Positions 2,263-24,519 of a DNA stretch of 24,682 nucleotides are shown here, in pieces. Made by a program: the position numbers and the translations under genes. The DNA comes from a virus. The number at the start of each line of letters is the position of its first letter. Position 1 is the first letter of the stretch. The stretch is taken from positions 1 to 24,682 of IMG/VR virus record IMGVR_UViG_3300025058_000006; one strand, given 5' to 3'. Below the pieces are notes generated by a model, which saw only the letters and a list, made by a program, of their open reading frames with translations, did no database searches and was not told the DNA's origin.

Positions 2263-4962
2263 ATGTCTTCAAAATTTGTCAAAAGAGAGTTAAAGGTTTT
2301 TTTTTCACTTTATCAAAGGCTTAATCTTAAGGTAATTCCTCTTGCAGTAGGGTCAAAGGTTCCTGTTGAGGGTTTAAAGTTAGCTCAAGTTTATGAGGGT
2401 CAGGATTTTCATTATAATTGGGAAACTCATTACGGGAATATAGGGATAGTAACTGGGTTTGAGAATTTTTGTGTAATTGATTGTGACACGAAAGAGGCGA
2501 TAGAATGGTTTGAGAGTTTAGAGGAGTATATACCAACAGTTGTTGTGAAGACGAGGAGAGGGCATCATTATTGGTATTGTATTTATGATGCGAAGCCTGA
2601 ACAGAGGAAGTCTTTTACTATTCAAGATGCTGAAGGTGTTTTTAAGGTAGATATTCTTTTTGGTAATAAATATGTGGTGGCACCACCTTCTGAAATAAGA
2701 AACAAGGGGGAGTATCATAAATATGTTTTTATAGATGGGTATGATCCTGTTAGGAACAGGCTTCAGATATCTTTGATGGATTATGAGACTTTGAAAGCTA
2801 TAATTGAGAAGGCTTATAGGAAGGCTGGTAGGACTATTTCGAGTGAGAAGATTTACAAGAAAATTGAGGAAGTAAAGGTAAGTGAAGAGGAGGAAAGGGA
2901 GAATATAGAGAAGTTTTTAAAAGTAGTAGAGATTTGCAAGAATTTTTATTATGAAGGGAATAGGCAGAACATATGGCTTGGTTTAGCAGGGATAGCAAGG
3001 AAACTTGGTATATCGAAAGAGATAACTAAAGAGATTTTAATGAAGGAATTGTATTATGGAATGAATGATGATGACAATGAGAAGCAGAGGCTAACAGCTA
3101 TAGATGGGACTTATGATAAAAGATTAGATGAGATAGCAGGGATAAGCATATTAGCTGAAAGGGTTGTTGATGCTGAAACTTTAGAGGAAATAGCAAGAAT
3201 TTTAAGACCTTTAAAGTATAAGGTAGTAGATAGAGAGGAGATACCGGCTCTTACCGAGGAGGCTTTATCTGAGGCTAAAAAGATAGTCAAAATTTGGAAT
3301 AAAACTTTTGCTTTGATTAATAATTATTGGTATGTGATGTCATCAGTAAATTCGAAAAAAAGAGGTGCTAAAGAAGAAGCTAAAACAGGAAAAATTTTAA
3401 AGCCGGTTTGTGTAGGTTTTTTAATAAAAGAGAGAGGATTTGATCATAAAAACCAAAGACCTATTTTTATAGCTTACAATTTAGAGACGAAAAGGGAAGG
3501 AGAAATAGATTTAGATACAATCAATTTAAAGAATTTTTTAGGGAAGCCTATTCTTGACTATAAAAATTTAGATTATTTGTGGAATGCTTTAATTGGAGAG
3601 AAAAGAGAAAAAAAATTTTATTCTGAGATGGGATGGCTTGAGTTAACTGAAAACAAAAAGATTTTTATTCATCCTTTAAATAATTCTTATTTGTTGAAGC
3701 ATAACGTTTTTTGCTATTTAGAAAAAGACTTAAGTCAGCTGTTTTGGTATAGCGATGCGGAGAAACAGCATGAAATGGTTAGGAATTTACTGATTGAAGG
3801 GAAGGTCTTGGCTGCTAAAATTGTATTTGGTGCTTGTAGTTTATTTTTAAGTCCAAGGGTTTCTGGCTTTTCTGTTTTTGATGTAGGACCAAGAGGGGTA
3901 GGAAAAACTACCACTTCTCAATTTGTAATTTCTTTATTTTATGATGCTAATTCTTCTCTAACACTTGAAGCAACAGTTACAGGAATGGAATTATATTTAA
4001 GAAGATTTAAGAATTTGCCTGTTTTATTTGATGAAACCACTTTTGCTAAAGATAAAACATTGCAAGAAATAGTATTTCTTATAGCTTCAGGAGTTGGAAA
4101 ACTAAGAGGAACTAAAAAATTAAGCGTTGATGTGGGGAAGTTGTATTCAGTTATTTTTATCACAGGAGAAAAAGATCCTGAATTTGAAAGAAGGGGAGCA
4201 GAAAGAAGAGTAATTATAATACCTGTTAGCAAATGGTCGGATTATACAGAAATGTATGTGAGACCTGATTTAGTTAGGACTTTTACGAAGATGCAAGGGG
4301 TGGGTTTTGATTGGATCAAATGGTTAGAAGAAAATCAGGATTTTCAAGATAGAATGGAATTACCTCAAGATCTTGTAGTTTTTAATTTTTGTGAGGTTAT
4401 AGAGAAGACTTTAGCTTTTTTAAAGACTTTTTACAATCTTTCAGATGCCGAATTTGAAAGGACCTATAAGATTGTGGTAGATATTCTTTATGAGCAGTTC
4501 GAAAGAATAGACATTCATTTTACTAAGCTAATAAATCATCTTTCTGAATTTATTTTGAAATATGCTCCCAATTTTATTATAACGGGATTGACTGCTAATA
4601 GGGAGCCTACGTCGGGGCAAATTTTTGGGTGTATAGATGCGGATAAAAATAAGATATTTGTAAGGACTGAAGTTTTGAGGAAATTTTGTGAGGAGGCAAA
4701 GGTAGATTTTAGGACTGTTATTAACAAATTGGAGGAGAAGGGAATTCTTTTAGCGAATGTTGAATATATGAAGGGTGGATTTTTTAAAAAGAGAGATGCC
4801 AAGGTTAAAAGGATTAAGTATCAAGGGCAGAGTTTTGTGGTTTCTGGTTATGAGCTTGATTTAGATAAGATCTCAGAAGAGTTTAGGGACCAATTGATTT
4901 CGGAAGCCATGAAGTCTGAGGGGAAATCCTTCAAGGAAATTATAAATGAGCTTCCTTTTTAG
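2263..4962 (+). CDS. Bifunctional primase-polymerase (PrimPol) / helicase
   Basis: This 899-aa protein has an N-terminal archaeo-eukaryotic primase domain. Visible motifs are GSKVP (about 30), NIGIVTG, the metal-binding VIDCDT (D73, D75), TRRGHHYW (H101/H102) and VDILFG followed by YVVAPPS (D130, residues 137-143). A middle segment, EGNRQNIWLGLAGIARKLGI (about 230-250), resembles a primase C-terminal linker. The C-terminal half carries a Walker A, GPRGVGKTT (542-550; K548, T549), and a Walker B, LPVLFDET (D590, E591). VIFITGEKD follows as a likely sensor region, then GAERRV with candidate arginine-finger residues. Such fusions make primers and unwind DNA at the phage origin. The ribosome-binding site is weak, suggesting coupling to the upstream regulators. 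The C-terminal domain beyond about residue 760 is not assigned. Codon choice shifts from GAG/AGG-rich to GAA-rich within the ATPase core, suggesting mosaic ancestry. Confidence 0.88.
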   Translation: MSSKFVKRELKVFFSLYQRLNLKVIPLAVGSKVPVEGLKLAQVYEGQDFHYNWETHYGNIGIVTGFENFCVIDCDTKEAIEWFESLEEYIPTVVVKTRRGHHYWYCIYDAKPEQRKSFTIQDAEGVFKVDILFGNKYVVAPPSEIRNKGEYHKYVFIDGYDPVRNRLQISLMDYETLKAIIEKAYRKAGRTISSEKIYKKIEEVKVSEEEERENIEKFLKVVEICKNFYYEGNRQNIWLGLAGIARKLGISKEITKEILMKELYYGMNDDDNEKQRLTAIDGTYDKRLDEIAGISILAERVVDAETLEEIARILRPLKYKVVDREEIPALTEEALSEAKKIVKIWNKTFALINNYWYVMSSVNSKKRGAKEEAKTGKILKPVCVGFLIKERGFDHKNQRPIFIAYNLETKREGEIDLDTINLKNFLGKPILDYKNLDYLWNALIGEKREKKFYSEMGWLELTENKKIFIHPLNNSYLLKHNVFCYLEKDLSQLFWYSDAEKQHEMVRNLLIEGKVLAAKIVFGACSLFLSPRVSGFSVFDVGPRGVGKTTTSQFVISLFYDANSSLTLEATVTGMELYLRRFKNLPVLFDETTFAKDKTLQEIVFLIASGVGKLRGTKKLSVDVGKLYSVIFITGEKDPEFERRGAERRVIIIPVSKWSDYTEMYVRPDLVRTFTKMQGVGFDWIKWLEENQDFQDRMELPQDLVVFNFCEVIEKTLAFLKTFYNLSDAEFERTYKIVVDILYEQFERIDIHFTKLINHLSEFILKYAPNFIITGLTANREPTSGQIFGCIDADKNKIFVRTEVLRKFCEEAKVDFRTVINKLEEKGILLANVEYMKGGFFKKRDAKVKRIKYQGQSFVVSGYELDLDKISEEFRDQLISEAMKSEGKSFKEIINELPF

Positions 4963-4969
4963 GACCTAC

Positions 4970-4997
4970 TTGACAAAATTTAAAAATGTGTTATATT
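4970..4997 (+). promoter_or_regulatory. Rightward extended -10 promoter (P4)
   Basis: A perfect TTGACA (4970-4975), a 16-base spacer and TATATT (4992-4997) preceded by TGT form an extended -10 promoter. It begins seven bases after the PrimPol stop codon. It is almost identical to P1 on the other strand, so both probably respond to the same signal. It drives the recombination genes from 5033. Confidence 0.75.
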
Positions 4998-20563: not shown

Positions 20564-20599
20564 AAATAAAATCGGGGGTTTACCCCGCTTATTTTATTT
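20564..20599 (-). terminator. Attenuator/terminator directly after the major capsid gene
   Basis: AAATAAAAT (20564-20572) pairs with ATTTTATTT (20591-20599), and CGGGG (20573-20577) pairs with CCCCG (20583-20587) above a three-base bulge, with a 5-base loop. The minus-strand transcript ends GGGG-loop-CCCC, then GATTTTATTT, a broken U-rich tail. The stem includes the capsid stop codon. Partial termination here would give more capsid mRNA than downstream mRNA. Confidence 0.7.
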
Positions 20600-21692
20600 A
20601 TGCACTAAAAGAAGGAACATTTTTAATTATAAAATGGGCTCTTGGTCTATCGGTATAAAATTGTCCTGTAATTAAGCATAAACTGCTAAAAGCAAGCCTA
20701 CCTTGAGTTACTTCACTCCACCATTCATGCACATAATATTCAATAGGAGAAGCTCCAGTAAAATATAAATGATCAAAATTTAAAAAGTAAATATCTCCAT
20801 AATAATTACCACCAGAGCTATAGTTTTGCAAATAAGGATCAGGAAAGATTGCTACCCCTCCAATATCAAGACCTCTGACGTTATATTCTCTTATATCAGC
20901 TATACTCCTTGTTTCTCCTACTATATATCTTTCTATAGAAACAAAGCTTTCAGCTATTTTAGAGAAAGTATTTGGATCAGTAAAAGCAACTCTTGGAACA
21001 CCATAAATATTTCCATATTCAGCCCAATATTTGTTTATTCCTCTATTTATTACTGCATAAATAGGTAGATTTGTGTCTCCTGCTCTTAAATCGTTAAAAT
21101 TATAAACAGGAGAATTCCACCATGGATAAGTAGTTCTACTTAATCCTCCAAATTCAGGTTGATTTAATCCGTTATCTACAACATCTTTTAAACCATAAAA
21201 TTTTTGATCATTAGTTCCTCTTGTTCCCATAAGATCAGTTTGTAGCCCTAAAAACAGTTGTCTAACTGCTTCTTCAATTTTTAATTGAACTGTATCAATA
21301 ATGTTATTAGGACTTTGCATGACAAGTCCTTCAAACATATTAATAGTGAAAGTTTGATATAATCCAGAAGGTGTAAATTTTGCATACAAAACATCCACAA
21401 AATAATCTTGTGTAGTAAAAGCACCAGTTGTGAAATTTATATATCTTGGTTGCATATTCTGTTGGTTAGTGGTGTCAGGTCCTCCATATACAGGAAAGAT
21501 CACAAAATCATGTTGAAAAGGTTGGCTATCTTGTTTTTCTAAAAGAAGTTTCATCAATGCTGAGACTTTAGGTAAGTTTTGGGCTAAAGCATACATTAAA
21601 ATGTTTCTTCGTGTAACATTTAGCCATCTTGTTAATGTGGCGGTATCTCTAAACCCACCACCAATATCAGTTACATAAGGTGTTATTGGCAT
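20598..21692 (-). CDS. Major capsid protein (HK97-fold, podovirus type)
   Basis: This 364-aa protein has an excellent ribosome-binding site (AAAAAAGGAGGTGT) and lies just downstream of a scaffold-like gene. Composition is that of a coat protein: few Lys/Cys, many Asn, Tyr, Phe and Gly. Notable segments are a long helix (VQLKIEEAVRQLFLGLQTDL, like the spine helix), then FYGLKDVVDNGLNQPEFGGL, then GLSRTTYPWWNSP. This Gly-Leu, Gly-Gly, Trp pattern after the spine helix is common in HK97-fold coat proteins. The C-terminus (RPRAHFIIKNV) fits the P-domain end. The coding density, expression signals and place next to scaffold and adaptor make the assignment fairly safe. Confidence 0.82.
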   Translation of the reverse strand: MPITPYVTDIGGGFRDTATLTRWLNVTRRNILMYALAQNLPKVSALMKLLLEKQDSQPFQHDFVIFPVYGGPDTTNQQNMQPRYINFTTGAFTTQDYFVDVLYAKFTPSGLYQTFTINMFEGLVMQSPNNIIDTVQLKIEEAVRQLFLGLQTDLMGTRGTNDQKFYGLKDVVDNGLNQPEFGGLSRTTYPWWNSPVYNFNDLRAGDTNLPIYAVINRGINKYWAEYGNIYGVPRVAFTDPNTFSKIAESFVSIERYIVGETRSIADIREYNVRGLDIGGVAIFPDPYLQNYSSGGNYYGDIYFLNFDHLYFTGASPIEYYVHEWWSEVTQGRLAFSSLCLITGQFYTDRPRAHFIIKNVPSFSA

Positions 21693-22415: not shown

Positions 22416-22868
22416 TTATACTTCTATACCTTCCAAAGATGGTTCACCAGGAGGTATAGAAGCTTCAGACGTTGGTGTTGGCGTTGGCGTTGGAGTTGGA
22501 GTTGGAGTTGGTGTTGGTGCCATTCCTGTTGCTATGGCTGTTGGTGTTGGTCCTACACCAGGCATTCCTGCTATTATAGTTTGTGCCTTAAGTAAAGCTT
22601 CATTAATATCTATAGTTTTCCCTATTCTTTTCATAATATCTAAAGCAACTTCATTTAATTCATCAAAAGGAGGAGTTGTAGCAATAGTTTGGGCTAATAC
22701 ATAAATAAAAGCTAACATACCTTCCTTTAAAGTATCAATTCCTTCAGGAACAGGTCCTGTCATCTGTGCCCTCATAACATCAGGAGAAATAGGTCCTGCC
22801 TCTAATCCTGCTGGTATCCCCCTTTCTAATCCTAAAATACTTAAAATTTCTTCTTTAGGATCTGGCAT
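22416..22868 (-). CDS. Hypothetical structural-region protein with Pro-Thr linker, 150 aa
   Basis: GAAGGAGG at about 22876-22883 gives a good start. The N-terminal 100 residues are helical (MPDPKEEILSILGLERGIPA, then LKEGMLAFIYVLAQTIATTP, then ELNEVALDIMKRIGKTIDIN). The C-terminus has eight consecutive Pro-Thr pairs (about residues 118-133) and a short acidic end, suggesting a stiff linker holding a C-terminal peptide. Pro-Thr linkers are common in exposed structural or surface proteins. It lies in the portal-to-scaffold interval but is far too small for a portal. No family is recognised. Confidence 0.7.
   Translation of the reverse strand: MPDPKEEILSILGLERGIPAGLEAGPISPDVMRAQMTGPVPEGIDTLKEGMLAFIYVLAQTIATTPPFDELNEVALDIMKRIGKTIDINEALLKAQTIIAGMPGVGPTPTAIATGMAPTPTPTPTPTPTPTPTSEASIPPGEPSLEGIEV
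22470..22517 (-). repeat. Hexamer microsatellite encoding (Pro-Thr)8
   Basis: Eight consecutive 6-bp units, each CCA plus an ACN codon on the minus strand, encode the Pro-Thr linker of the 150-aa protein. Each change of one unit keeps the frame, so linker length could vary between isolates. Confidence 0.9.
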
Positions 22869-22883
22869 TCCTTAACCTCCTTC

Positions 22884-23088
22884 AAGAGAGGCTGCTGAAA
22901 TTGATCTTTTAATTTTTTTTAAATTTTTTTAAGCTGTTGTTCTTTTTTTCCTTCTTCCAGCTTTTCTTCCAGCTTTTCTTGTTTTCTTTCTTTTCCTTCT
23001 TGCCATGGTCCCCTCCTCCTTTCTTTAGTCTTTTTTTAATTTTTTAATATTTTCTCGTTTAATAGTAAAAATTTCAGCAGCCTCTCTT
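22884..23088. repeat. Perfect 19-bp inverted repeats flanking the 25-residue gene
   Basis: AAGAGAGGCTGCTGAAATT at 22884-22902 recurs as its exact reverse complement at 23070-23088, with 167 bases between. The right arm lies near the predicted start of the transcript from P5. The left arm ends three bases before the GGAGG of the 150-aa gene. In RNA the arms could close a long stem around the small gene; in DNA they resemble terminal or inversion repeats. Confidence 0.85.
22929..23006 (-). CDS. Very small, highly basic protein, 25 aa
   Basis: The ATG at 23006 follows a very strong site (AGGAGGAGGGGACC), and the stop is at 22929-22931. The product is made almost only of Arg, Lys, Ala, Gly and Thr: MARRKRKKTRKAG, then RKAGRRKKRTTA. 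A 12-bp tandem duplication (22953-22976) encodes the repeated AGRK unit. It is the first gene after the consensus promoter P5 and lies between the inverted repeats. The composition suggests nucleic-acid binding, like a protamine-type packaging peptide or an antitermination-like RNA-binding peptide. The strong ribosome-binding site argues that it is real despite its size. Confidence 0.65.
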   Translation of the reverse strand: MARRKRKKTRKAGRKAGRRKKRTTA

Positions 23089-23108
23089 TAGTATCATTTT
23101 CAATAATT

Positions 23109-23137
23109 ATTATAACACAAAAAAATTAATTTGTCAA
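23109..23137 (-). promoter_or_regulatory. Consensus leftward promoter for the capsid block (P5)
   Basis: On the minus strand there is a perfect TTGACA (23132-23137), a 17-base spacer and a perfect TATAAT (23109-23114) preceded by TG (extended -10). The -35 overlaps the endolysin stop codon. Predicted initiation near 23102 puts the right 19-bp inverted-repeat arm at the start of the leader. It is the strongest promoter in the window and would drive all morphogenesis genes. Confidence 0.8.
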
Positions 23138-23583
23138 TATTTAAACAACAATTTTACTCCTTCTAAAAAAAGAGCTCTTTCAGCTTGTCTTCTTCTTTCT
23201 AATCCTTTTAATTTTTTACCTCCTGCATAAACCCATTTTAAAAACTCATTGCTTGCATCTAAAAATTCTTTTTTATTAATTTTTTTTCTCAAAGTTGAAA
23301 CTTTAAAAGCATAACAACCAACATTATAACTGAAGCTAATTAAAGCATCCATCATATATGGATGAATTTTTACTTGAATTAATGGACTTATTATTTTTTC
23401 GATTTTTAATAGATCTTCTATTAACAATTCTTCTGCTTTTTCTTTTGACAAAGGTATTTCTATTTTCATTTTAGGATAAATTACTTTTCCATATCCGATT
23501 GTTAAATAACCAGCTGGACATCTATAAGGATAATCTGAAAAACCTTCAAACTTTTTAACAAGCTCAACACATCTTTCAGTCAT
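23134..23583 (-). CDS. Endolysin, GH24 lysozyme (phage R/T4 lysozyme family)
   Basis: This 149-aa muramidase cleaves the glycan backbone of peptidoglycan at lysis. The diagnostic segment is KKFEGFSDYPYRCPAGYLTI, followed by GYG. Glu13 is the catalytic acid, Cys22 stands in the position often held by Asp, and Thr28 is present at the expected spacing (E, +9, +6), as in many phage GH24 enzymes. Further family features are the helix DALISFSYNVGCYAF and the end GLERRRQAERALFL. I chose the ATG at 23583. It lies two bases after the holin stop and gives the usual family N-terminus. The longer frame to 23631 would add 16 unlikely residues overlapping the holin gene. No signal peptide is visible, so export depends on the holin. 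Confidence 0.88.
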   Translation of the reverse strand: MTERCVELVKKFEGFSDYPYRCPAGYLTIGYGKVIYPKMKIEIPLSKEKAEELLIEDLLKIEKIISPLIQVKIHPYMMDALISFSYNVGCYAFKVSTLRKKINKKEFLDASNEFLKWVYAGGKKLKGLERRRQAERALFLEGVKLLFKY

Positions 23584-23585
23584 TT

Positions 23586-24059
23586 TTAAACTCTCCCAAA
23601 AGTTCTTTGCATTAATCTTCCACCAAACCAAAAAGTAATGATAGTTGCTATAAAATCAGTTTCATATTGTCCCCAAATTTGAGGAATTGCTTCTAAAGTT
23701 CCTCCTGCCTTCTGCCACATAGCATATTTTAAAATAAGCCACATTGTAATAATTAAATAAGTAATAGTAGGTCTTACAGATTGATTATAAGCATTCATCA
23801 AAACTTGTATTATATCGATAAATTTAGAGCCTGTTAGTGTTATTGGTGTAGTTCCTGTGTATTGATAAACTGCTTTATCTAATTCTATTTGAGCCAAAGC
23901 TTTTGCTTCTTCTATTCTTATTTGAGCTAATTCTTTTTGATGTTTTAATTCAAACTCTAATCTTTCTAATTCTTGCTTATGCTCTAATTTTTCACGATAT
24001 ATTTTAATTAACTCAGGAATAAAGCTTGAAACCAAGCCTATTATTGTTCCTATTAGCAT
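23586..24059 (-). CDS. Holin, three-TM family (GTA-type holin)
   Basis: A short hydrophobic N-terminus (1-16) is followed by a long charged coiled coil (about 20-65, rich in Glu, Lys and Gln). Two membrane segments follow: TITYLIITMWLILKYAMW (about 98-115) and FIATIITFWFGGRLMQR (about 136-152). The SVRPTITYL and FWFGGRLMQR signatures are those of the 3-TM holins described in gene-transfer agents and many phages. It sits directly before the endolysin and has a strong GGAGGAG site. Holins open the inner membrane to let endolysin reach the wall. Confidence 0.85.
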   Translation of the reverse strand: MLIGTIIGLVSSFIPELIKIYREKLEHKQELERLEFELKHQKELAQIRIEEAKALAQIELDKAVYQYTGTTPITLTGSKFIDIIQVLMNAYNQSVRPTITYLIITMWLILKYAMWQKAGGTLEAIPQIWGQYETDFIATIITFWFGGRLMQRTFGRV

Positions 24060-24061
24060 AT

Positions 24062-24352
24062 CTACTCCTCCTTTTTCATTAATAGTCTTACTAAATAATT
24101 AAATTTTTCCTCTAACTTTATAGACAAAGTATTTATTTTTTCTTCCAATCTATGTTGAATTTTTTCTAATCTATCATATAAATTTTGAATTTCTTTCCAA
24201 TGCAAGTCAAATTTTGCTGAACATACATTGTATTTTTTTAAACAATCATCTACAGCATTATTCTCTTTTCTTATTTTAAGCCAGTCCCATACTATCTTAA
24301 AAATTAAAGCTATAAAATTAGCAAGCAATAAAGAAGCTATAACTTCACTCAT
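24062..24352 (-). CDS. Membrane-anchored coiled-coil protein, lysis-associated, 96 aa
   Basis: An N-terminal transmembrane helix (about 3-24, VIASLLLANFIALIFKIVWD) is followed by a Cys pair region (CLKKYNVCS) and a coiled coil (about 53-85). One TM segment plus a coiled coil next to a holin recalls i-spanins and hemolysin-type accessory proteins. No lipobox-containing o-spanin partner is visible. The ATG shares an ATGA overlap with the upstream 56-aa gene. The function is inferred from neighbours. Confidence 0.65.
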   Translation of the reverse strand: MSEVIASLLLANFIALIFKIVWDWLKIRKENNAVDDCLKKYNVCSAKFDLHWKEIQNLYDRLEKIQHRLEEKINTLSIKLEEKFNYLVRLLMKKEE

Positions 24353-24519
24353 TTCTTATTCCTTCTTTTTTTTCTTTTTTTTCCTGATTTTCCTGTTGTT
24401 AAAGAATATGCTATAGCTATTGCTTGTTTTTTTGGATATCCTTCTCTAATATAATGAGCAATTAGTCTACTACGATAACTTTCTATACTTTCTCCTTTTC
24501 TTTTTCTTGGTTTAGGCAT
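24349..24519 (-). CDS. Small basic phage protein with GYPKKQAIAIAYS motif, 56 aa
   Basis: The ATG at 24519 follows a GGAGAAAAT site, and the frame ends at 24349-24351, overlapping the next gene by four bases. The product begins MPKPRKRKGESIESYRSRLI, continues AHYIREGYPKKQAIAIAYSL, and ends in a Lys/Arg-rich tail. A short GYPxxQAxAIAYS helix pair of this kind recurs in small proteins and domains of several phage head modules, as I recall, but its function is not established. It is one of three tiny basic proteins in the late block. Confidence 0.72.
   Translation of the reverse strand: MPKPRKRKGESIESYRSRLIAHYIREGYPKKQAIAIAYSLTTGKSGKKRKKRRNKK

Follow-up and report, generated by a model that had tools for sequence, protein, structure and literature searches.

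A stretch of 24,682 nucleotides of viral DNA, comprising IMG/VR record IMGVR_UViG_3300025058_000006 and hereafter called the window, carries at the head of its capsid mRNA an RNA element that is supported by covariation and finds no match in Rfam at the gathering score, either in the window or in six relatives. The element is unusual in that its stem encloses a whole mini-gene. An inverted repeat in the window would encode this long-range RNA stem, whose pairing would close off the leader at the 5′ end of the late (capsid) mRNA. We give a probability of roughly 0.45 to the reading in which the closing stem, at the 5′ terminus, shields the late mRNA without unfolding during translation of its first two genes.

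One arm of the repeat, AAGAGAGGCTGCTGAAATT, occupies positions 22884-22902, and the other, at 23070-23088, is its exact reverse complement, so that 19 bp with 0 mismatches are separated by a spacer of 167 bases. This is the longest inverted repeat of the window at spacers of 60-300 nt, the runner-up being 13 bp, and the maxima in 30 simulated first-order Markov sequences of the window's length were 11-14 bp as against the 19 bp observed. A preliminary description of this DNA had reported perfect 19-bp arms around 167 bases containing a strong ribosome-binding site and an Arg/Lys gene, with one arm near the 5′ end of the late transcript and the other abutting the ribosome-binding site of a 150-aa gene. 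The sequence bears out the arms and their contents; the predicted transcription start (+1), near 23102, coincides with the end coordinate given in that description, and the gap between the other arm and the AGGAGG of the 150-aa gene is 2 nt.

All of the features concerned lie on the minus strand, in the order lysozyme gene, promoter, arm, A-rich stretch, ribosome-binding site, mini-gene, 26 nt, arm, 2 nt, AGGAGG and 150-aa gene. The lysozyme gene (23134-23631; Pfam Phage_lysozyme) is located just upstream of the late leader. The late promoter (23109-23137) is of the sigma-70 type, TTGACA-17-TATAAT, agrees with the consensus at 12 of 12 positions and has a spacer of 17 nt; with +1 predicted near 23102, about 14 nt separate the start from the 5′ arm of the closing stem (23070-23088; transcript AAGAGAGGCUGCUGAAAUU), for which a covarying counterpart exists in all six relatives. 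The ribosome-binding site of the mini-gene, GGAGGAGGGG (23012-23019), precedes the 25-codon basic mini-gene MARRKRKKTRKAGRKAGRRKKRTTA (22929-23006), and 15 nt separate the end of the 3′ arm (22884-22902) from the next start codon. Behind this arm lie the ribosome-binding site AGGAGG (22876-22881) and the 150-aa gene (22416-22868), which opens the capsid block as its first larger gene and is 55-60% identical in 6/6 relatives. The 150-aa protein had no Pfam match and only a marginal match to a PHROG of unknown function; it contains a Thr-Pro repeat tract (PTPTPTPTPTPTPT, 22470-22520), the length of which varies among relatives. The major capsid protein is encoded at 20598-21692 (phrog_9953 major head protein, E 2.7e-13). 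Elsewhere in the window, two 64-nt regions (692-755 and 4934-4997) are 73% mutually complementary and resemble two similar promoter regions, one on each strand, and a 56-aa gene with basic ends (MPKPRKRKGES...KKRKKRRNKK; 24349-24519) heads the lysis genes.

Relatives were collected from IMG/VR with the capsid protein of the window, which yielded six contigs with capsid proteins 80-82% identical to it. Scans of viral sequences with an alignment of the capsid and with an alignment of the 150-aa gene returned the same six loci again; further members of the clade were not found in bacterial and archaeal genomes, and a DNA search of annotated phages with the window sequence gave no match. A terminase 71-75% identical to that of the window is present in all six. 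The stem-bearing phage family includes hot-spring members: metagenome 3300005860, the source of one relative, is Yellowstone hot-spring water from Washburn Spring (PMC7380581). Each of the six relatives has an inverted repeat at the equivalent place, composed of letters unlike those of the window.

The arms of the seven loci were aligned in a register chosen by hand, anchored with artificial identical flanks, and the pairs were then counted. Two-sided changes occurred at 15 of the 18 stem pairs in this hand-set register, the sample being a small one of seven sequences in which L001-L003 are closely alike. Pairing cells amounted to 92.9% in register versus 37-49% after the partner had been slid by 1-3 columns, and the covariation score was reached by 0 of 500 shuffles. 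Because the register had been picked for pairing, a second, register-free test was run, in which the two flanks of the mini-gene were paired with each other as well as possible without gaps and the score was compared with dinucleotide-preserving shuffles; at every one of the seven loci it was above that of all 2000 shuffles. Compensatory swaps were seen between close relatives, namely from L001 to L004 (G-C to A-U, A-U to G-C) and from L005 to L006 (A-U to G-C, C-G to U-A). Among the non-canonical pairs on the transcript strand there were six G-U versus two A-C, which is the direction expected for RNA but is not significant (p = 0.14). The predicted mean pair probability of the stem was 0.85-0.99 at 37°C and 0.79-0.97 at 70°C. 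Pairing has thus been kept in seven related phages despite differing letters, indicating that the fold itself is selected, and these comparisons support selection on base pairing in the late mRNA.

The same data bear on whether the repeat acts as DNA, as an invertible segment, the remnant of a mobile element or a protein-binding dyad. A perfect inverted repeat with a gene inside would suit such a feature, but we regard it as very improbable, since the arms differ between relatives and covary, the orientation of the segment is the same in 7/7 loci, the 19-mer has no second exact copy in the window or in IMG/VR, and no flanking direct repeat or duplication was recognized by eye around the repeat of the window. 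The preliminary description had set three readings side by side and had suggested a search for the 19-mer elsewhere, the outcome of which is the absence of further copies just given. Its RNA stem is upheld by the compensatory changes in relatives, whereas its invertible segment and its inserted element fail on the divergent arms and constant orientation; arms diverging without compensation, which it had named as evidence against its proposal, are not what the relatives contain, as their arms differ yet covary. An invertible segment was rejected on these observations together with the Pfam scan of 27 window proteins, which turned up neither a site-specific recombinase nor a transposase or reverse transcriptase, and an inserted element or MITE was rejected on the covarying arms, the lack of another exact arm copy and the lack of a flanking direct repeat.

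The arrangement of the leader was compared among the seven loci. A similar promoter is located at the same place in the six relatives, with spacers of 16-17 nt (hexamers assigned by eye). Between the −10 box and the 5′ arm lie 6-9 nt in six of the seven loci and 20 nt in the window; given the predicted starts, about 14 unpaired 5′ nucleotides would precede the stem in the window, and the transcripts of the six relatives would start at the arm. In most members, where the arm begins at the predicted start, the RNA should already be paired from its first bases. The loop of the stem is 122-167 nt long, with 31-56 nt between the 5′ arm and the first ribosome-binding site and 20-36 nt between the mini-gene stop codon and the 3′ arm. 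From the 3′ arm, the second ribosome-binding site is 2-8 nt away and the second start codon 15-19 nt, the latter in 7/7 loci. Both ribosome-binding sites lie outside the stem at all loci, and that of the mini-gene was predicted to be largely unpaired in the window (0.71 at 37°C, 0.91 at 70°C). The A-rich stretch ahead of this site (window 23022-23060) recurs in L001-L004, with a common AAAAGAAGACTAA-like motif. L001 and L003, alone among the members, have a further local hairpin, AATTGTTCATGAGCAATT, with a T run behind it, inside the closed loop between the mini-gene stop and the 3′ arm. An intrinsic terminator was rejected as an explanation of the stem itself: the loop is much longer than a terminator would have, and only L001 and L002 show a T run past the 3′ arm.

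The ribosome footprint reaches about 15 nt past a stop codon and begins about 15-20 nt ahead of a start codon. The closing stem could therefore stay folded during the passage of ribosomes over the mini-gene and the 150-aa gene, because the mini-gene is located well inside the loop and the 3′ arm lies at the edge of the footprint of a ribosome bound at the next gene. It would shield the 5′ end and the whole leader from 5′-end-dependent decay, for which RppH with RNase E, or RNase J, are candidates, and a message needed for many capsid subunits would be kept alive. We favor this mechanism because the arm is at the predicted +1 in 6/7 loci and both ribosome-binding sites are left outside the stem. 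According to a review (PMC3997798), cleavage by RNase E is more than tenfold faster at an accessible 5′ monophosphate than at a base-paired end, and B. subtilis RppH requires at least two unpaired 5′ nucleotides. Two considerations count against shielding. With its approximately 14 unpaired nucleotides, the 5′ end in the window would not be sealed, unlike those of the other six loci, and a short local hairpin would protect equally well, so that protection alone leaves a gene-spanning stem unexplained.

The main rival is processing by RNase III, which would cut both strands of the duplex. A short mRNA for the peptide would be set free, and the capsid mRNA would acquire a new 5′ end immediately in front of its ribosome-binding site, in the manner of the T7 and rRNA processing sites. 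Such processing would agree with a long duplex around a stretch of RNA, reaching right up to the next ribosome-binding site, and with conservation of pairing rather than sequence, as expected for a duplex-specific nuclease. However, the gap-free stems are 15-19 bp long (counting G-U), which is below two helical turns (approximately 22 bp) and hence a little short; the stem of L002 has one mismatch, no internal loop is conserved among members, and a stem starting at the predicted +1 in 6/7 loci is unnecessary for processing. We consider RNase III processing rather unlikely. A role in organizing translation, with stability secondary, appears more doubtful still: the stem would bring the 5′ end beside the second ribosome-binding site or set the output ratio of the two genes, and the gap between the 3′ arm and the second start codon is indeed the tightest of the longer spacings. 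However, the second ribosome-binding site has predicted accessibilities (37°C) between 0.23 and 0.88, depending on the locus, so that no consistent switch is seen.

The mini-gene of the window consists of 60% Lys/Arg codons, and homologous genes of 15-21 codons are present in 6/6 relatives, where they encode 62-76% Lys/Arg and begin with MARR. The pN/pS values were 0.16 and 0.19 in the two pairs of relatives of alignable length, the sequences being very short. By these measures the mini-gene is a real gene with the appearance of being translated. Its position raises the question of autoregulation, in which the basic peptide would bind its enclosing stem and alter the translation, stability or termination of the late mRNA; a peptide of 60-76% Lys/Arg is indeed encoded within the conserved stem in 7/7 loci. 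However, the letters of the stem vary widely while the MARR start is kept, so that any binding would have to be non-specific, and the ribosome-binding sites both lie outside the stem. Similar basic mini-genes also occur at the equivalent place in phage lineages that have no such stem, which makes autoregulation less likely, and we judge it to be improbable.

These other lineages include a contig of 48 kb, L036, in which a 12-codon gene, MARRKKRSRRRR (2590-2628), precedes scaffold-like and capsid-like genes; an enclosing stem was looked for around it and was absent. A distant lineage, known from Manatee Spring, has a capsid protein 23% identical to that of the window and is very common in IMG/VR, with at least about 600 capsid matches. 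It carries two basic genes of about 13 codons, of the types MYKKMKRGRKTRR and MARMKRKGRKGRK, and both were present in 46 of the 56 loci with enough upstream DNA among the best 80 of these at least about 600 matches. The twin genes are located at 4446-4607 of L009 (MW202753) and 4457-4617 of L010 (MW202825), and also occur in L044-L122; their pN/pS was 0.15-0.46. An enclosing stem was looked for in this freshwater lineage as well and was not conserved. The search thereby led to very short basic genes in several phage lineages, and these are missing from the annotation of the two annotated genomes examined, MW202753 and MW202825.

Other structures were noted in the twin-gene lineage. Between the twin mini-genes of L044-L121 (e.g. 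L009, 4488-4546) there is a conserved pseudoknot-like RNA, AGGG..CCCU, in which GGCUGACU pairs with AGUUGGCC; it has several covarying pairs and a GNRA-type hairpin ahead of it, some sequences being mis-registered in the matching, and Rfam gave no match to it in eight loci. In the same loci, a G+C-rich hairpin of variable sequence (e.g. GGGGGAGGGGAAATACTCCCCCACTTGACA) ends right upstream of the −35 box of a TTGACA promoter located after the second mini-gene.

As L036 lacks the stem and the freshwater lineage does not conserve one, the peptide does not depend on such a stem. It is probably an independent product, encoded in the first cistron by coincidence, and perhaps a nucleic-acid-binding virion peptide. 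We also considered stem and peptide as one unit, in which the basic mini-protein would bind duplex RNA, coat or clamp its own stem and time late expression. This is quite improbable; if true, an exceptionally small gene would come with an RNA housing of its own.

For the peptide alone, the core peptides J of phiX174 and mu of adenovirus offer an analogy as very short basic proteins encoded near capsid genes; the present peptides differ in being shorter (13-25 aa) and in belonging to a dsDNA tailed phage. For the stem, a described equivalent, either a stem with a leader peptide or such a structured phage RNA, was not found in the open-access literature. In retron msr-msd, the a1/a2 inverted repeats are likewise near the transcript start and before the next gene, but here the enclosed stretch is a coding gene, and a retron was rejected because no reverse transcriptase was found among the 27 window proteins scanned with Pfam. 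RNase III processing stems, such as those of T7 mRNAs, the rRNA processing stems and the lambda N leader, share with the element a perfect duplex around an RNA segment that ends beside a ribosome-binding site; the stem here is slightly short, and the RNA that it encloses is a coding mini-cistron. The 5′ stabilizing stem-loops of bacterial mRNAs, of the ompA/papA type, would resemble it in their duplex close to the transcript start, before which 6/7 of our loci are predicted to leave few 5′ nucleotides unpaired, and differ from it in that the loop here is 122-167 nt long and contains a whole gene and that about 14 nt are predicted to precede the stem in the window. The element makes it testable how a late phage message could stay protected during translation. 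Stems at the 5′ terminus that stabilize mRNA are already known; a gene-enclosing one that a phage family maintains by covariation appears to be new.
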